Source: Bacteroidia bacterium
GTDB taxonomy: Bacteria; Bacteroidota; Bacteroidia; JANWVE01
Length of the DNA: 34,350 nucleotides
NCBI GenBank assembly: GCA_025057675.1
Contig: JANWVE010000010.1
Coordinates: 1 to 34,350 of the forward strand
Direction of reading: 5' to 3'
A program made the position numbers and the translations under genes. Of the stretch, positions 4,925 through 17,464 are shown one piece after another. Position 1 is the stretch's first letter. The number at the start of each line of letters is the position of its first letter. The notes under the pieces were generated by a model, which made no database searches, was not told where the DNA came from, and saw nothing but the letters and a program-made list of their open reading frames with translations.

Positions 4925-5312
4925 TTTGGGCGTGTCCCTCGCTGCGCTCGGGTCGGCGTGCTACGGGCTACGCTATCGCTTCGGTGCTTCGCACTGCTCA
5001 CGCACCCTCCGCATGCCTCACGCGAAGAACACTGCAAATAGCTAAACTCACCTACTACAAGTTTTAACCTTGTAAATAATTGATGATAAGTCAAAAATAA
5101 AGTAAAAATGTCTTGTTTTTTACCTCATTTTAGAAATAAGGTAAAGTAAAACATTGTATAAAAAAAAGTAAAAACTCAAAATACAGGGTTAAACTGCGTG
5201 AGGGATATGCAGCATGCCGTTAGGCAGTGCGGAGCGTGAGCGCAGCACCGAAGCGATAGCGTAGTGCGGAGTAGTCCGACCCGAGCGCAAGCGAAGGGAC
5301 ACGCCCAAAAAA
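4925..5312. repeat. Composite inverted-repeat element between purD and his leader
   Basis: A forward arm (4925-5023, TTTTGGGCGTGTCCC to CTCACGC) and a reverse arm (5196-5312, GCGTGAGGG to CACGCCCAAAAAA) enclose a 172-nt A+T-rich spacer. The spacer holds degenerate AAGGTTAAA/ACCTTGT-like blocks, including TTTTAACCTTGTAAAT. The reverse arm is nearly identical to 1-117. The element ends about 60 nt before the his promoter. Confidence 0.9.
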
Positions 5313-5376
5313 ACAAAATTGTTTTGCAATTTATTCTATCTCAGAGGTTACTTTTCCAAAATTTTGTGAAATACAT

Positions 5377-5407
5377 TTTGCTGATTAAAAAAATGTTTCT
5401 ATGTTTG
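5377..5407 (+). promoter_or_regulatory. Histidine operon promoter
   Basis: TTTG at 5377-5380, a 19-nt spacer and TATGTTTG at 5400-5407 form a near-ideal Bacteroidota housekeeping promoter. The predicted transcription start is around 5412, giving a leader of about 160 nt before hisG that contains the His-rich peptide ORF and the attenuator. Confidence 0.8.
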
Positions 5408-5427
5408 TGGCCAAATAAGATAAAAGT

Positions 5428-5490
5428 ATGCTACGTGCTTATACTCATGTACACATACATCATCACTCCGTGAAAATGCGGTGTGCGTGA
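5428..5490 (+). CDS. hisL: His operon leader peptide (20 residues, His-rich)
   Basis: An ATG at 5428 opens a 20-codon ORF ending in TGA at 5488-5490. Codons 7-13 read His-Val-His-Ile-His-His-His, so five of seven consecutive codons are His (CAT/CAC, 5446-5466). The peptide begins MLRAYT and ends SVKMRCA. It lies just after the promoter and ahead of an RNA region with mutually exclusive folds. A run of the regulatory amino acid's codons in a short ORF before a biosynthetic operon is the hallmark of ribosome-mediated attenuation, as in enterobacterial hisL. The peptide itself need have no function. I use hisL by analogy, not homology. Confidence 0.85.
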   Translation: MLRAYTHVHIHHHSVKMRCA

Positions 5491-5547
5491 GTGTATTTAC
5501 TATGCATATTTTTATCCGCACCCGCTATGAAGATAACTTTGTAGCGG
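5464..5547 (+). promoter_or_regulatory. His attenuator: alternative pause and antiterminator stems
   Basis: Three overlapping pairings can be read. Stem 1:2 pairs CACTCCG (5464-5470) with CGGTGTG (5479-5485), with one T-T mismatch. Stem 2:3 pairs GCGGTGTGCG (5478-5487) with CGCACCCGC (5517-5525): nine pairs and one bulged T. Stem 3:4 is the terminator, whose left arm begins at 5522. Stem 2:3 occupies the first four bases of that arm (CCGC, 5522-5525), so antiterminator and terminator exclude each other. Ribosomes stalled on the His codons would cover segment 1 and free segment 2. Confidence 0.8.
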
Positions 5548-5558
5548 TTTTTTATTTT
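5522..5558 (+). terminator. His attenuator terminator upstream of hisG
   Basis: CCGCTATGAAG (5522-5532) pairs with CTTTGTAGCGG (5537-5547) across an ATAA loop: 11 pairs, two of them G-U type. A T tract follows (5548-5558, TTTTTTATTTT). It is a good intrinsic terminator 14 nt before the hisG start. Confidence 0.85.
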
Positions 5559-5572
5559 GATAAGATGAAGCT

Positions 5573-6430
5573 ATGCAGGTACTCAAACTAGCCGTTCAAA
5601 AAAGTGGGCGATTGAGTGAAAGGTCTTTTCAATTGCTCAAAGAATGTGGCATTAAAATACCAAACGAGGATAGAAAACTCTACTCCTCTGCAAGTAATTT
5701 TCCATTAGAAATACTATACTTACGTGATGATGATATTCCTCAGTACGTAGAACAGGGCGTAGCAGATATTGGGATTGTAGGTTGGAATGAAGTCGTAGAG
5801 CAAGATAAAAATGTAGAAGTCGTAGAATATCTTGGTTTTGCCCAGTGCAGACTTTGCTTAGCTATCCCTAAAGACGCAGACTATACGGGATTAGCCTATT
5901 TTGAGCATAAACGTATAGCTACCAGCTATCCGAATACATTAAAAAATTTTTTTGATTCCCAAGGGATACCCGTTGAAATTGAGAAAATTGGCGGAAGTGT
6001 AGAAATAGCGCCTCGAATGGGATTAGCAGATGCCATTTTTGATATTGTCAGTACAGGTAGTACTCTATTGATGAATGGCTTAAAGGAAGTGTATACTGTA
6101 CTTAAAAGTGAAGCGGTTTTAGTCAAAAATACATATTTAGCCACAGATAAGCAAAATATCCTAGATAAATTTGTATTTCGAATTAAAGCAGTAAAAAATG
6201 CTTCTGAAAATAAATATATTTTGCTCAATGCGCCTAATGAAGCTCTGCCTAATATCATTAAAATTTTACCAGGGATTAAAAGCCCTACTATCCTGCCTTT
6301 AGCTGAAACTGGTTGGAGTAGCTTACACTCTGTGGTCAAAGAAGATCAATTTTGGGATATTATTGACCAACTAAAAGCCTTAGGCGCACAAGGGATTTTA
6401 GTGTGTTCTATTGAAAAAATGGTAATTTAA
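5573..6430 (+). CDS. hisG: ATP phosphoribosyltransferase, long form
   Basis: HisG joins PRPP and ATP in the first, committed step of histidine synthesis. At 285 residues it is the long form with its own C-terminal regulatory domain, which normally mediates histidine feedback inhibition and makes a separate HisZ unnecessary. Visible landmarks are the opening LKLAVQKSGRLSERSF, the ADIGIVGWNEV segment, and GGSVEIAPRMGLADAIFDIV followed by STGSTL, the PRPP-binding region. The C-terminal ACT-like part covers roughly residues 210-285. It is the first structural gene after the attenuator and is followed one base later by hisD. Control is probably double: feedback inhibition plus attenuation. Confidence 0.97.
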   Translation: MQVLKLAVQKSGRLSERSFQLLKECGIKIPNEDRKLYSSASNFPLEILYLRDDDIPQYVEQGVADIGIVGWNEVVEQDKNVEVVEYLGFAQCRLCLAIPKDADYTGLAYFEHKRIATSYPNTLKNFFDSQGIPVEIEKIGGSVEIAPRMGLADAIFDIVSTGSTLLMNGLKEVYTVLKSEAVLVKNTYLATDKQNILDKFVFRIKAVKNASENKYILLNAPNEALPNIIKILPGIKSPTILPLAETGWSSLHSVVKEDQFWDIIDQLKALGAQGILVCSIEKMVI

Positions 6431-6431
6431 T

Positions 6432-7733
6432 ATGAACAAAATAAAATTTTTTATTGAACCGAAACGAAACGAATGGAATTTTCTTATTCAAAGACCTCAA
6501 ATAGGGGCACAATCTCTTCAGTCGTTGGTACAGGAGGTATTTTTATCTGTACAAAATGAAGGTGATGTAGCCATTGAGCGGTATACCCACCAATTTGATG
6601 GTGCTTCTCTGTCTAATTTTCAAGTGAGTGAAGAGGAGATAAAAAGTGCCTTTGAACAGATACCTACTACTCTTAAAAAAGCTATTGAACAAGCTTATGA
6701 GAACATATACACTTTTCATTTTTCTCAAAAGGAAAGAAAAAAAGTAATTGAAACGGTCAAAGGAGTAGAGTGTTGGCGTGAAAGCCGCCCTATTCAAAAA
6801 GTAGGAATATACATTCCAGGTGGCAGCGCGCCACTTTTTTCAACCGTTTTAATGTTAGGTATCCCTGCTCAAATTGCAGGTTGTCAAGAAATTATACTTT
6901 GCTCACCTCCAAATAAAAGTGGAAAAATTGACTCTGCTATTCTATACAGCGCAGCTCGTACAGGAATAACCCGCATATACAAAATAGGTGGTATCCAAGC
7001 TATTGCTGCTATGTCCGTAGGCACAGAAACCGTACCTAAAGTGTATAAAATATTCGGACCTGGCAACCAGTACGTTACTGCGGCTAAAAAATATGCTCAA
7101 GAGCAAGGTACAGCTATTGATATGCCCGCAGGACCAAGTGAAGTACTAATCATAGCCGATAAATATGCTCAAGCTGAATTTGTAGCCGCTGATTTACTCT
7201 CCCAAGCTGAACACGGTACTGATAGCCAAGTTGTTCTACTGACTAACCACTTACCTTTACTGGATAAAGTTCAACAGCATATACAAAAACAATTGCAATA
7301 TTTGCCCCGCTATGCTATAACCGAACAAGCTCTCAATAACAGTTTTTTTATTTATTTCAATACCTTAGAAACCTGCTTTGAATTTGCTAATGAATATGCA
7401 CCTGAACACCTTATTCTCAATCTTAAAAACTACAAAAAATGGATTGCTCATGTTCATAATGCAGGTTCAGTATTTTTAGGTCAATATAGTTGTGAAACCG
7501 CAGGGGATTATGCCAGTGGCACTAATCATACTTTGCCTACTGCAGGTTTTGCCAAAGCATATAGCGGCGTATCTTTGGATAGCTTTGTTAAAAAAATTAC
7601 CTTTCAGCGTATATCTAAAAAAGGCTTACTCAAATTAGGAACTACTTTGGAAGTAATGGCTGAACATGAATCCCTATTAGCCCATAAAAATGCTGTAACT
7701 TTAAGATTGAATCATACCCCAAAAAAATCATGA
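6432..7733 (+). CDS. hisD: Histidinol dehydrogenase
   Basis: HisD oxidises L-histidinol to L-histidine in two NAD-dependent steps, the last reactions of the pathway, and uses zinc. The 433-residue length is normal. The family core is clear: VGIYIPGGSAPLFSTVLMLG, then KIFGPGNQYVTAAK, then MPAGPSEVLIIAD, and the Zn-site region LSQAEHGTDSQ. The catalytic pair is in YAPEHLIL (E325, H326), followed by NAGSVFLGQYSCETAGDYASG. It begins one base after the hisG stop and overlaps hisC by four bases, so it is embedded in the operon. Confidence 0.97.
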   Translation: MNKIKFFIEPKRNEWNFLIQRPQIGAQSLQSLVQEVFLSVQNEGDVAIERYTHQFDGASLSNFQVSEEEIKSAFEQIPTTLKKAIEQAYENIYTFHFSQKERKKVIETVKGVECWRESRPIQKVGIYIPGGSAPLFSTVLMLGIPAQIAGCQEIILCSPPNKSGKIDSAILYSAARTGITRIYKIGGIQAIAAMSVGTETVPKVYKIFGPGNQYVTAAKKYAQEQGTAIDMPAGPSEVLIIADKYAQAEFVAADLLSQAEHGTDSQVVLLTNHLPLLDKVQQHIQKQLQYLPRYAITEQALNNSFFIYFNTLETCFEFANEYAPEHLILNLKNYKKWIAHVHNAGSVFLGQYSCETAGDYASGTNHTLPTAGFAKAYSGVSLDSFVKKITFQRISKKGLLKLGTTLEVMAEHESLLAHKNAVTLRLNHTPKKS

Positions 7734-8767
7734 ACATAGAAGATTTTATCCGACCGAATATCAAAAATTTAGTCGCATATTCTAGTGCAAGGAGTGAGTT
7801 CTATGCACGAAATGCTATATTTTTAGATGCTAATGAAAGTCCGTATGGCAAGTACAATCGTTATCCTGATCCTTACCAAGTTGAACTCAAAAAATGTTTA
7901 TCCGAATACAAAAAGGTTCCACTACCACAAATTTTTATTGGAAACGGTAGTGATGAGGTATTGGATGTATTGATGCGCGTATTTTTAGAACCACAACAAG
8001 ATAGCATATTGATATTCCCACCTACGTACGGGATATACGAAGTATTGGCTAACATACATCACGTAGAAACGCACAAAATTCCGCTTACGCAGCACTTTGA
8101 TTTGGACATAACTGCAATTGAAGCTTTTCTACAAGAAAAAAATCCTAAAATGGCAATTATTTGCAGTCCCAATAATCCCACAGGTAATATCATTGAGCGT
8201 ATTGACCAATTTTTACAGATATTCAAAGGTATAGTTGTGATAGATGAAGCATACATTGATTTTACAGTTCAAGAGCATTCTAATATAAGGTACATTGATT
8301 CGCATCCTAATTTAGTCATCACTCAAACGTTAAGTAAAGCGTGGGGCTTGGCAGGGTTAAGGATAGGTATGGCATTTGCGCATCCTGTTGCCATTCAATA
8401 CATGAACAAAGTGAAATATCCTTACAATGTGAGCAGTCTTAATCAAAAGGTGGCTATTAAAGCTCTCTCTAATCCTGATAAGGTTCATAGACGTATTGAA
8501 AAAATTCGCAAGCGCAGGGCGTATTTATCTCAAAAGCTTCGTAAGTTTAAGTTTGTAGAGCGTATATTTCCTTCGGAAGCTAATTTCGTATTAGTGCAGG
8601 TTTCAGATGCGCATAAAATATATGAGCGTTTGTTATCTGTTCCGATAGTAGTCAGAAATAGGCACAGTCAAGTACCTAATACATTGCGTATCACGGTAGG
8701 TACAAAAAAGGAGATAGAATTACTTTTGTATCAACTTAGCCAAATAGAAAATGAGGATAAAGGATAA
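7730..8767 (+). CDS. hisC: Histidinol-phosphate aminotransferase
   Basis: HisC is a PLP enzyme that transfers an amino group from glutamate to imidazole acetol phosphate. The 345 residues form a fold-type I aminotransferase. It opens with the HisC-like LDANESPYGKYNRYPDPY, then FIGNGSDEVLDVL, CSPNNPTGN and VIDEAYIDF. The PLP-binding lysine is K203 in TLSKAWGLAGLRIGMAFA. The start overlaps the end of hisD (ATGA). The gene ends 13 nt before a repeat element that separates it from hisB, the only large gap in the operon. Confidence 0.96.
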   Translation: MNIEDFIRPNIKNLVAYSSARSEFYARNAIFLDANESPYGKYNRYPDPYQVELKKCLSEYKKVPLPQIFIGNGSDEVLDVLMRVFLEPQQDSILIFPPTYGIYEVLANIHHVETHKIPLTQHFDLDITAIEAFLQEKNPKMAIICSPNNPTGNIIERIDQFLQIFKGIVVIDEAYIDFTVQEHSNIRYIDSHPNLVITQTLSKAWGLAGLRIGMAFAHPVAIQYMNKVKYPYNVSSLNQKVAIKALSNPDKVHRRIEKIRKRRAYLSQKLRKFKFVERIFPSEANFVLVQVSDAHKIYERLLSVPIVVRNRHSQVPNTLRITVGTKKEIELLLYQLSQIENEDKG

Positions 8768-8778
8768 TTTTTTATTTA

Positions 8779-9152
8779 TTTTGGGCGTGTCCTTGTGGGC
8801 GTTCCGCTGCGCTCATGCCCACAAGGTCGGCGTGCTACGGGCTACGCTTTCGCTTCGGTGCTACGCTTCGCTCCGCACTGGGCTAACGCCCACCCTCCGC
8901 ATGCCTCACGCAAATAATGCTGCTTGTGCACTTAGCCCACCTATTCAAGGTTTAATCTTGTAAATATCTGATAATGAATACTAAACGAATTAAAGCAAAA
9001 CGATGTATATAAACCATGTAAAACATCAAAAAGCAGCTGCGTGAGGGGCATGGAGCATGCCGTCAGGCAGTGCGTAACGAAGTGAAGCACCGCAGCACAA
9101 GCGAAGTGCGGAATGCACCGACCCGAAGCGCAGCGAGGGGCACGCCCAAAAA
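8779..9152. repeat. Composite inverted-repeat element inside the his operon
   Basis: A forward arm (8779-8911) and a reverse arm (9039-9152) enclose a 127-nt spacer. The forward arm has a perfect 10-bp stem, CCTTGTGGGC (8791-8800) with GCCCACAAGG (8817-8826), and a second stem TGGGC-TAAC-GCCCA. The spacer closely resembles the 126-nt spacer of the element at 23453-23857, including AAGGTTTAATCTTGTAA and GTAAAACATCAAAA. This 430-base hisC-hisB gap shows no protein-coding gene and no clear promoter of its own. Confidence 0.9.
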
Positions 9153-9197
9153 CAAAATTATGAACTTAACATAAAAAACATGCAAATCATTAAAAAT

Positions 9198-10292
9198 ATG
9201 AAAAAGAAAGTTCTTTTTATAGACCGTGACGGTACATTGATTGTTGAACCTCTGCCCGATAGACAAGTGGATAGCTTGGAAAAATTAGAGTTTTATCCAG
9301 GGGTGTTCCAGTATTTATCAAAAATTGCCCAAGAAATGGATTATGAATTAGTAATCGTAACTAATCAAGATGGATTGGGAACAGAAAGTTTTCCCGAAGC
9401 CAACTTTTGGCTACCTCATAATAAAATGCTCAAAGCTTTTGAGAATGAGGGTATTCACTTTGCTTCTGTACATATAGATAGAACTTTTGAACACGAAAAT
9501 GCCCCCACGCGTAAACCAGGTACAGGCATGCTCACCTCCTATTTTTCCCAAGAGTATGATTTAGCAAATTCTTTCGTTATCGGCGATAGACTGACCGATG
9601 TTCAATTAGCTAAAAATTTAGGTGCTAAAGCCATTTTACTCAACACTATGGAATGCCCTGATGCAGTGTTAGTTACTACTTCTTGGCGAGAAATTTATTA
9701 TTTTTTACGCGCTGTGCAGCGCAGCGCTCAAGTTCGTCGTACTACCCAAGAAACAGATGTGTTCGTAGAAATTGCGTTAGAAGGTACAGGAAAGACAAAT
9801 ATAAACACAGGTATTGGCTTTTTTGACCACCTTTTATCTCAAATACCTCGCCACGGATTAGTAGACCTAACTATTCAAGCCAAAGGAGATTTACACATAG
9901 ATGAACACCACACTATTGAGGATGTAGCAATTACCTTAGGACAAGCAATCAATAAAGCATTAGGTAATAAAAAAGGGATTGAAAGGTACGGTTTTACTCT
10001 ACCTATGGATGATTGTATTGCGTCTGTGTCGATAGACTTTGGAGGGCGAGCAGAATTGGTATGGAAAGCAAAATTCAAAAGAGAAAAAATAGGCGATATG
10101 CCTACGGAAATGTTCAACCATTTTTTTAAGTCTTTTTGTCTGCATGCACAATGCAATCTGTATGTAAAAGCTAAAGGTAAAAACGAACACCATAAAATAG
10201 AGAGCATTTTCAAGGCATTTGCCAAAGCACTTAGTAAAGCTATTCAAATCAATGAACACCAATCTTTACCTAGTACCAAAGGAGCATTATGA
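9198..10292 (+). CDS. hisB: Bifunctional histidinol-phosphatase / imidazoleglycerol-phosphate dehydratase
   Basis: This fused enzyme catalyses two steps: dehydration of imidazole glycerol phosphate (C-terminal domain) and hydrolysis of histidinol phosphate (N-terminal HAD domain). I prefer the ATG at 9198 ([18 protein letters not shown]) over an in-frame ATG at 9180, because it places the HAD nucleophile motif DRDGT at residues 9-13, as is usual; the product is then 364 residues. The HAD domain covers about residues 1-165, with a Cys/His zinc loop largely absent. The dehydratase shows [29 protein letters not shown] and the C-terminal [15 protein letters not shown]. It overlaps hisH by four bases. 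Confidence 0.95.
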
Positions 10293-10867
10293 TAGGTATC
10301 TTAGACTACGGAGCAGGGAATATTACTTCAGTAGCATACATGCTACAAGCTCTAAATGTGCAATTTTTTATTTCTCATGAAAAAAAAGTGCTTGAAAAAG
10401 CGGACAAAATCATATTCCCAGGCGTAGGAAATGCTTCTTATGCTATGCAAAAAATTAAAGAATATGATTTGACAGACTTTATTTTGCGGTATTCTAAACC
10501 TTTCTTAGGTATTTGCTTGGGAATGCAGCTCCTTTGCGAACATACCGAAGAAGGTAATACCTTAGGTTTAGGTATTATTCCTGCCAAAGTAAAAAAATTC
10601 CCCCCAAAAGGTATCATTCCTCATACAGGTTGGAACAGTGTACATTATCAAGAACAGATTATTTTTAAGGGCATACCTCAAGATGCAGATTTTTACTTTG
10701 TGCATAGCTATTACGTAGAAAGCAACCCTTATACCATTGCTACCTGTATGTATATCATTCCTTTTTGTTGTGCGGTTCAAAAGGATAATTTTTGGGGCGT
10801 ACAGTTTCATCCTGAAAAATCTGCAGAATACGGTAAAAAACTTCTTCAAAACTTCGTAAATCTATGA
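10289..10867 (+). CDS. hisH: Imidazole glycerol phosphate synthase, glutaminase subunit
   Basis: HisH is the class I glutamine amidotransferase that feeds ammonia to HisF. The 192-residue length is normal. It opens [18 protein letters not shown]. The nucleophile is C76 in GICLGMQLL. The catalytic His and Glu are H174 and E176 in [10 protein letters not shown]. It overlaps hisB and hisA by four bases each, consistent with tight translational coupling to its partner enzymes. Confidence 0.96.
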
Positions 10868-11580
10868 AAATTATACCTGCTATAGATATTATCGAGGGCA
10901 AATGTGTGCGTTTAACCCAAGGCGATTATAGCCAAAAAAAAATTTATCATCAAAACCCTGTTGAAGTAGCTAAAATGTTTGAGGGTTATGGATTAAAGCA
11001 TCTTCATTTAGTAGATTTAGACGGAGCTAAAGCCAATCAAGTAGTCAATTACAAAGTTTTGGAAGAAATTTGCACACAAACTACTTTACAAGTAGAGTTT
11101 AGTGGAGGCATAAAATCTTATCAGGATTTGAAAAAAGTATTAGAAAGCGGAGCAAGTCAAGTATCTATAGGTTCAGTAGCGGTTAAGCATCCAGAGCTGT
11201 TTTTAGAATGGTTGAGTATGTTTGGGAATGAAAAAATTATATTGAGTGCAGATGTTAAAAACGGCTATGTAGCTATTCAAGGTTGGCAGGAGCAGAGTCA
11301 AGTTTCCATATTTGATTTTTTGGCATACTACCAAGAAAAAGGAGTGAAGTATGTCATTTGCACGGATATTAGCAAAGATGGTATGTTACAAGGTGCATCC
11401 ATAGGTTTGTATCAAAGTTTAATGGAGCAATTCTCTCAACTTAATTTTATCGCAAGTGGGGGAATTAGCAGTGAAAAAGATTTAGAAACCTTGCGGCAAA
11501 TAGGCTGCACAGGGGCAATTATAGGCAAAGCCCTATACGAAGGAAAAATTAACTTGAAAATTTTACAGTCTTATGCTTAA
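10864..11580 (+). CDS. hisA: ProFAR isomerase (phosphoribosylformimino-AICAR-P isomerase)
   Basis: HisA performs the Amadori-type isomerisation of ProFAR to PRFAR. The 238 residues form a (beta/alpha)8 barrel. Catalytic D8 is in [20 protein letters not shown] and the second catalytic Asp (D130) is in ILSADVKNG. Two phosphate-binding motifs characteristic of HisA/HisF are visible: VEFSGGIKS and FIASGGISS, the latter followed by [11 protein letters not shown]. It overlaps hisF by eight bases. Confidence 0.96.
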
Positions 11581-12337
11581 AAAAAGAATTATACCTTGCT
11601 TAGATGTCAAAGCGGGGCGAGTAGTGAAAGGAGTACATTTTGAGCAACTCAAAGATAGCGGTGACCCTGTAGAGTTGGGCTATCAATATGCCGAGCAAGG
11701 TGCAGATGAATTAGTTTTTTTAGATATTACGGCTACCCAGGATAATCGTAAAACGCAATTAGAATGGGTCAAAAAAGTAGCACAAAAGATTCATATTCCT
11801 TTCACAGTAGGTGGAGGAATTAGTACATTGTCTGATGCGGCTGCTATTATAGAAAGCGGCGCAGATAAAATTAGCATCAATTCTGCTGCGGTCAAAAATC
11901 CTGATTTAATTACAGAAATTGCCAAGCGTTTTGGTAGCCAATGTGTGGTAGTAGCCATTGATACTCAAAGGGTAGACAAACTTAATAAAGTCTTTATTGC
12001 AGGGGGTAAAGTGGAAACTTCATATCTGACCGAAGATTGGTGTAAAAAAGTTCAAGATTTAGGTGCAGGAGAAATTTTACTTACTTCTATTGATCACGAT
12101 GGTGTTAAAAAGGGGTTTGCTATTGAGCTGCTTACCGATGTTGCTAAGAAAGTAAGTATTCCTGTTATTGCTTCAGGAGGGGCAGGTGTAAAAGAACATT
12201 TTTTAGAAGTATTTCAAAAAACAAATGTTTCTGCAGCTTTGGCAGCCAGTGTTTTTCATTATCAAACCATTTCAATTCCCGAATTAAAGTTATATTTACT
12301 ACAACATTCTATTCCTGTGCGTTATGTCCAATTTTAA
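11573..12337 (+). CDS. hisF: Imidazole glycerol phosphate synthase, cyclase subunit
   Basis: HisF uses ammonia from HisH to convert PRFAR into imidazole glycerol phosphate and AICAR. The 254-residue barrel opens [20 protein letters not shown] with catalytic D11; the second catalytic Asp is D130 in [10 protein letters not shown]. Phosphate-binding loops are [10 protein letters not shown] and [13 protein letters not shown]. It overlaps hisA upstream and hisIE downstream (14 bases), so the synthase subunits are produced from one coupled message. AICAR re-enters purine synthesis, a metabolic link with purD nearby, although the two transcription units are separate. Confidence 0.97.
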
Positions 12338-12929
12338 TTTTGAAAAGGCAAACGGACTTATTCCTGCTATTGTGCAGCATGCCTTTACTCAACAAGTGCT
12401 TATGCTTGGATATATGAATGCAGAAGCCTATCAAAAAACGTTAGAAACAAGGAAAGTTACTTTTTTTAGTAGAAGTAAAAACCGTCTATGGACTAAGGGT
12501 GAAACGTCAGGACATTTTTTGATTATGCAAGAAATGTATATTGATTGCGACCAGGATACTTTGTTAGTTAAAGCTCTTCCGCAGGGACCTACTTGCCACA
12601 AAGGAACTGTCAGTTGTTTTGAGGAGGACTATAGAGCAGGATTTTTGTATCAATTGCAAACTGTTATTGACCAGCGCATAAGCACGCAGGATAAGGATTC
12701 TTATACCTACAAACTGTATCAAAAAGGGATACATAAAGTTGCTCAAAAAGTGGGCGAGGAAGCTGTGGAATTGATTTTAGAAGCCAATGGAAAGGATACT
12801 CTACTATTCCAAAATGAAGCTGCGGATTTGCTTTATCATTTTTTAGTTTTATTGCGGGCTAAGGGGCTTACTTTACAGGATATTGAGCAAGTTTTAAGAG
12901 AAAGACACGAAGGTAAGAATAAAAAATAA
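12324..12929 (+). CDS. hisIE: Bifunctional PR-AMP cyclohydrolase / PR-ATP pyrophosphohydrolase
   Basis: This fusion performs steps two and three of the pathway. The N-terminal HisI part (about residues 1-110) shows [40 protein letters not shown] and the zinc-binding Cys/Asp region CDQDTLL...[12 protein letters not shown]. The C-terminal HisE part (about 112-201) shows [20 protein letters not shown] followed by EAVELILEA and [11 protein letters not shown]. The 201-residue length is typical. It ends the operon; a repeat arm begins within 10 nt of the stop and no ordinary terminator is visible. Confidence 0.96.
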
Positions 12930-17116: not shown

Positions 17117-17464
17117 TTTTGGGCGTGTCCCTCGCTTGCGCTCGGGTCGGGCTACTCTGCACTACGCTATCGCTTCGGTGCTACGCTGCGCTACGCACTG
17201 CCTGACGGCATGCTGCGTATCCCTCACGCAGATGACCTGTGTAATTATGTCTTTACCTTGTTTAAGATTGAAGCACAATCACTTAAAAAACTAAAACTTT
17301 GCATAAAATACAGAGAAATGGTTTTTTCAGAGTTCTCTTGCGTGAGGCATGCGAAGGGCGTGCGTCAGCACGGTGCGCAGCACCGAAGCGATAGCGCAGC
17401 CCGCAGCACGCCGACCTTGCTTGCATGAGCGCAGCGAAACGCAAGCAAGGACACGCCCAAAAAA
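17117..17464. repeat. Composite inverted-repeat element between convergent C25 and psd genes
   Basis: A forward arm (17117-17229) and a reverse arm (17340-17464) enclose a 110-nt spacer, the shortest of the set, containing TTTACCTTGTTTAAGATTG. The reverse arm has the perfect stem CCTTGCTTGC (17415-17424) with GCAAGCAAGG (17441-17450), around the 16-nt loop length common to this arm type. It sits between two genes that converge, next to both 3' ends. Confidence 0.9.

Follow-up and report, generated by a model that had tools for sequence, protein, structure and literature searches.

The region at positions 5377-5558, directly upstream of hisG in a Bacteroidia genome, in all likelihood acts as a ribosome-mediated transcription attenuator, matching expression of the his operon to the amount of charged tRNA-His available, judging from its sequence and from folding models. 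The stretch analysed here, referred to as the window, comprises 34,350 nucleotides (contig JANWVE010000010.1, forward strand) of a 2.89-Mb draft genome (elsewhere given as 2.9 Mb) that is 91% complete. The sequence-only reading of this DNA had proposed an attenuation layout like that of enterobacterial hisL, and the anatomy described below fits it at every testable point. Since the same arrangement is found throughout most of the phylum, Bacteroidota that carry it would very probably detect a lack of histidine by ribosome stalling, in much the same way as Escherichia coli.

The leader and the his operon in the window

According to NCBIfam matches, the his operon is complete at window positions 5573-12929, in the order hisGDC(NB)HAF(IE) (Table 1). 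The leader region ends 15 nt upstream of it, hisG is the first gene controlled, and the operon makes the same amino acid, histidine, that the leader codons specify.

Table 1. Features of the leader and of the his operon, in window coordinates
Feature	Position	Strand	Remarks
Bacteroidota-type promoter-like pair	TTTG 5377-5380; TATGTTTG 5400-5407	+	19 bp between the boxes; fits TTTG-N19-TAnnTTTG
Long leader hairpin	5419-5516	+	5' part and His codons pair with 5477-5515 (predicted fold)
Leader peptide ORF	5428-5490	+	20 codons, MLRAYTHVHIHHHSVKMRCA and stop; regulatory His codons 5446-5466
Antiterminator 5' arm	5478-5490	+	overlaps leader ORF end and stop codon; predicted fold
Antiterminator 3' arm	5515-5525	+	5522-5525 common with terminator left arm; predicted fold
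Intrinsic terminator	5522-5532/5537-5547	+	loop 5533-5536; T-rich tract 5548-5558
hisG	5573-6430	+	long form with C-terminal regulatory domain; TIGR00070 (E 2.4e-59) and TIGR03455
hisD	6432-7733	+	NCBIfam match
hisC	7730-8767	+	NCBIfam match
hisB, bifunctional (NB)	9180-10292	+	NCBIfam match
hisH	10289-10867	+	NCBIfam match
hisA	10864-11580	+	NCBIfam match
hisF	11573-12337	+	NCBIfam match
hisIE	12324-12929	+	NCBIfam match

The consensus promoter that had been reported, TTTG followed after 19 bp by TATGTTTG, can be read directly at 5377-5407. Downstream of it lies the expected short leader ORF, rich in codons for the amino acid of the operon: the run His-Val-His-Ile-His-His-His occupies codons 7-13, as had been described, so that His stands at codons 7, 9, 11, 12 and 13, five of seven codons. 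The ORF was said to be out of frame with a longer open frame, which proved to be one of 69 codons at 5264-5473. No Shine-Dalgarno sequence is evident upstream of the leader ORF. When the 350 bases preceding hisG were shuffled with their dinucleotide composition preserved, such a His-rich ORF arose in 0/5000 trials. Elsewhere in the genome, the exact His-codon pattern was found in three places only (one of them counted twice by overlap), and none of these is a mini-ORF before a biosynthetic operon. One is the gene of an ArgR-like repressor with the His-rich C-terminal tail HNHVHHHHHEH (C244:17213-17239, L118), located, as judged by eye, directly upstream of an apparent shikimate dehydrogenase gene.

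Between the leader ORF and hisG lies an intrinsic terminator, whose stem and T tract had been placed correctly by the sequence-only reading. Its stem has 11 pairs without a mismatch, counting G-U as a pair, and leads into TTTTTTATTTT; the minimum free energy (MFE) is -14.4 kcal/mol (z -5.0). Only five terminator-like sites lie in 11 kb, and this one clearly surpasses the other four; an equally good one appeared in 1/400 dinucleotide shuffles of the 350 bases preceding hisG. The antiterminator, claimed to cover bases 5522-5525 of the terminator left arm, is recovered in the predicted fold of 5475-5535 (MFE -19.5 kcal/mol, z -3.7), with pairs 5478-5481:5522-5525, 5483-5487:5517-5521 and 5489-5490:5515-5516. 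The first of the three stems originally described (5464-5470:5479-5485) exists, although it contains a U-U mismatch and is weak alone (z -1.9). Its sequestering role is taken over, in the predicted fold, by one long leader hairpin that pairs most of the ORF with 5477-5515 and that together with the terminator dominates the ribosome-free leader (5406-5553, MFE -58.6 kcal/mol, z -8.1).

The competition between these structures was modelled by masking the ribosome footprint and ending the RNA just before the terminator right arm. With the modelled A-site at His 11, 12 or 13, the antiterminator had a probability of 0.99-1.00; the value was 0.81 at His 7, 0.37 at His 9 and 0.00 without a ribosome or with the ribosome at the stop codon. 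Once the RNA is full-length, equilibrium favours the terminator in all of the modelled ribosome states because it shares only 4 nt with the antiterminator, and antitermination must therefore be kinetic. In these models, the antiterminator would thus exclude the terminator kinetically, and its 5' arm could be masked by a ribosome at the stop codon.

His leaders across Bacteroidota

The survey covered 111 Bacteroidota hisG loci, two duplicates removed. They represent the class of the source genome, further classes of the phylum and a number of named species (Flavobacterium rivuli, Flavobacterium sp. Sd200, five Kaistella species, Myroides phaeus and Frigoriflavimonas). We searched upstream of hisG for mini-ORFs starting with ATG and containing at least four His in eight codons. 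Such a His-rich mini-ORF was detected in 75/111 loci, against 1/2220 shuffles (0.05%) and 0/111 reverse strands, and in 58/111 loci it was followed by a terminator, a combination seen in 0/2220 shuffles. The leader peptides resemble each other in little but the His run, as exemplified by MKNTIALFHHHHLI, MNLTIHHHHHNNTCQ and MKINLHIHHHTSYLAG. In the cultured carrier Flavobacterium rivuli DSM 21788, the leader is located at L036:4827-4953. Among 20 out-of-class loci checked, hisD adjoined hisG in all 8 loci with a leader and in 5 of the 12 without one; the leaders track an operonic hisG-hisD arrangement. They form a large family of mini-genes that is likely missed by gene finders.

Seventy leaders could be dissected. 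Their stop-codon region pairs with the terminator left arm with a mean z of -2.9, at p<0.05 in 73% of them, the antiterminator pairing alone not being significant in the other 27%; counted from the ORF end, the antiterminator arm spans -12 to +8 in the median. The pairing is specific to each leader: arms pair with their own terminators at a mean of -15.1 kcal/mol compared with -10.1 kcal/mol for swapped ones (0/5000 permutations), and the same test among 21 dissimilar terminators gave 0/20000 permutations. Likewise, the His-run region paired with its own downstream segment at -12.8 kcal/mol and with swapped segments at -10.0 kcal/mol, the best of 5000 permutations reaching -11.4 kcal/mol. The promoter box TAnnTTTG was present upstream of 48/70 leaders (4.7% in shuffles), and in 33/70 it was accompanied by TTG at a spacing of 16-21 bp (0.5% in shuffles).

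Compensatory changes in the stems, seen in the genus mate and in two independent alignments, point in the same direction. In the genus mate (L030), the peptide at the same place, MQSVHTCVHHVHHHLKKRCA, has diverged and is nevertheless His-rich, and the promoter TTTG-N19-TAAGTTTG keeps its position and spacing. All 11 terminator pairs are retained, with G-C replaced by C-G at 5532-5537 and G-U by A-U at 5529-5540, and the antiterminator pair 5487-5517 is G-C in the window and A-U in the genus mate. The long hairpin also folds there, but 10 of the 42 aligned pairs are broken. Across 20 flavobacterial-type leaders, three terminator pairs covary (16 cells changed on both sides), a score reached by 0/500 shuffles, a control that sequence relatedness can inflate; antiterminator covariation is weak in this alignment, with one pair showing a both-sided change. 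Among 14 leaders from out-of-class families, four of seven antiterminator pairs covary (11 cells), again with 0/500 shuffles reaching the score and with the same possible inflation of the control by relatedness, and terminator covariation in this set was not above shuffles. The sequence-only reading had proposed looking in relatives for His runs together with competing, covarying stems, and the mini-ORFs, the swap tests and the covariation clearly bear this out.

Where hisG is 79% identical to that of the window (L015/L031), the terminator is kept, the His run, judged by eye, has shrunk (MLVHHIKYFVFIEH), and an antiterminator is not clearly recognisable; this leader is possibly decaying. In L033, L034 and L046, GTTTACTCAG, which lies just 3' of the terminator, could pair with its complement CTGAGTAAAC inside the terminator, and a further alternative pairing in read-through transcripts is possible.

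Proposed mechanism and alternative explanations

From the ORF, the stems, their conservation and covariation and the geometry of the leader, all of which are read in the DNA itself, we infer the following course of transcription start, leader translation, ribosome stalling and altered read-through. Transcription would start a few bases past 5407, and the 20-codon leader would be translated at once. When histidine is plentiful, the ribosome would reach the stop codon at 5488-5490 and cover the antiterminator arm 5478-5490, so that the terminator 5522-5547 forms and transcription halts near 5550. When charged tRNA-His is short, the ribosome would stall at codons 7-13 and open the long leader hairpin; the freed arm 5478-5490 would then pair with 5515-5525 before the terminator right arm is made, and the polymerase would enter hisG. 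Without a ribosome, the long hairpin would sequester the arm and the terminator would form by default. A phylum-wide attenuator of this kind implies that the leading ribosome follows RNA polymerase closely enough to steer the nascent RNA, which opens transcription-translation coupling in Bacteroidota to direct tests in cultured species, Flavobacterium for example.

The His-rich peptide might instead control translation, with the leader ribosome altering access to the hisG start or reinitiating there and the terminator being secondary. Such a role would suit those relatives in which the leader is His-rich and no T-tract terminator lies upstream of hisG (L048-L053, L058, L060 and L101 type). Against it, a strong terminator separates the ORF from hisG in the window and in 57 other loci, the stop-codon region pairs with the left arm of the terminator and not with the hisG start, and 82 nt lie between the ORF end and the hisG start; we therefore regard translational control as improbable. 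The terminator-less leaders may be a variant of the His leader that works through Rho or at the level of translation. Their stretch of 57-81 nt between the ORF and hisG is G-poor and pyrimidine-rich (G 3-9%, C 19-31%, compared with G 18% and C 16% in terminator-type leaders) and resembles Rho-loading sites, a likeness that we take as a lead only. In one out-of-class family and similar loci (L048-L053, L058, L060, L063, L066, L071 and L101), the peptides are longer and richer in His, ending in DVHHAHRGHHHIHVH; an in-ORF hairpin (GATGTCC/GGACATC) was observed, and the stop codon lies in the loop of a small hairpin. These loci, too, lack a T-tract terminator and have a pyrimidine-rich stretch poor in G ahead of hisG.

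T-boxes and riboswitches control similar operons in other phyla, and the terminator could accordingly respond to a ligand or a protein (through a riboswitch, a T-box or an RNA-binding protein), the His codons being incidental. This explanation is very improbable: at gathering score, the leaders of the window and of 20 relatives match no Rfam family, and between families, where the RNA sequence differs, only the His run is conserved. Coincidence, that is, a spurious His-rich frame beside the terminator of something upstream, is scarcely credible: short ORFs are common in AT-rich DNA and six overlap the leader region, but the ORF did not appear in any of 5000 shuffles of the DNA upstream of hisG in the window, the ORF and terminator occur together in dozens of families, and the promoter motif lies directly upstream of most leaders, so that the 111-locus survey, the arm-terminator swap test and the shuffles refute it.

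Relation to known systems and origin of the leader

Ribosome-mediated attenuation is itself a classical, textbook mechanism. Lopatovskaya's work of 2010 reportedly may list attenuator candidates from Bacteroidetes/Chlorobi. Outside a comparison with that work, what is apparently new is the phylum-wide occurrence of such leaders where ribosomes ignore Shine-Dalgarno sequences, of which we found no description. Regulation of his genes in Bacteroidota is essentially undescribed in the literature that we found: a 2021 study of his genes in this superphylum mentions attenuation for enterobacteria only (PMC8305728). In Bacteroides thetaiotaomicron, a transcriptome study described long 5' UTRs containing short ORFs 'reminiscent of leader peptides' (PMC7366714), and ribosomes of Bacteroidota do not recognise Shine-Dalgarno sequences (PMC9976891).

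The closest parallel is enterobacterial hisL (RF00514, His_leader), which shares with the window leader a short peptide that includes a His run, a set of competing stems (sequester, antiterminator and terminator) and a position directly before hisG in an operon of the order hisGDC(NB)HAF(IE). The window leader differs in its interspersed His codons (HVHIHHH), its stem sequences, its Bacteroidota promoter, the lack of an evident Shine-Dalgarno sequence and the single long hairpin that would sequester the antiterminator arm. The window leader was not matched by the RF00514 model at E up to 10, nor were the leaders of 20 relatives at gathering, and no model of Rfam 15 matches these Bacteroidota His leaders.

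Within the same phylum, Bacteroid-trp RNA is an upstream element found before trp genes and, since its upstream ORF contains Trp codons, is presumed to be an attenuator. Described as a cis-regulatory motif of Bacteroidetes (RF01692; Weinberg et al. 2010, PMC2864571), it concerns another amino acid and operon, and its model had no match in the genome of the window or in 39 relatives. In bacilli, His leader peptides were reported before hisS and hisZ (Naville and Gautheret 2010, PMC2965389), with the remark that leader-peptide systems had until then been demonstrated in Proteobacteria and Actinobacteria only. These leaders also combine a short ORF carrying a His stretch with a premature terminator, although they belong to Firmicutes and stand before genes for an aminoacyl-tRNA synthetase or HisZ instead of a his biosynthetic operon. 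Amino-acid attenuators known from comparative genomics of Proteobacteria and Actinobacteria (Vitreschak 2004; Seliverstov 2005, PMC1262725; Lopatovskaya 2010) are of the same mechanistic class in other phyla.

The order and gene fusions of the window operon equal those of gammaproteobacteria exactly, a type of arrangement that has been discussed in terms of horizontal transfer (PMC8305728), and the leader may therefore have come with a transferred operon. No similarity between the Bacteroidota leaders and the enterobacterial leader was detected by sequence or Rfam comparison, and repeated independent origins were also considered by Naville and Gautheret (PMC2965389). Common ancestry and repeated invention are both compatible with these data. 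A broader scenario, which we offer tentatively and hold to be possible but somewhat unlikely, is that His attenuation is old and general in Bacteroidota, arose separately from the enterobacterial form, operates without recognition of Shine-Dalgarno sequences, and shifted to Rho-dependent termination in one lineage that kept the His-rich leader. The leader would also offer a ready-made histidine-responsive switch.

As to the source genome, only one trpE-like match, below cut-off, and one weak match to the aspartokinase family were identified. Neither leuA nor ilvB was matched, although the genome is 91% complete and has a full his operon, which suggests that the source organism is a branched-chain amino-acid auxotroph. 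No second leader was found within the his operon in the 412-bp gap between hisC and hisB, which holds repeat-like sequence: by eye, 8790-9150 is similar to a 111-bp dispersed repeat that lies at window positions 5196-5306, 1-109 and 17121-17229 and has at least 41 matches in the genome, mostly 91-94% identical.
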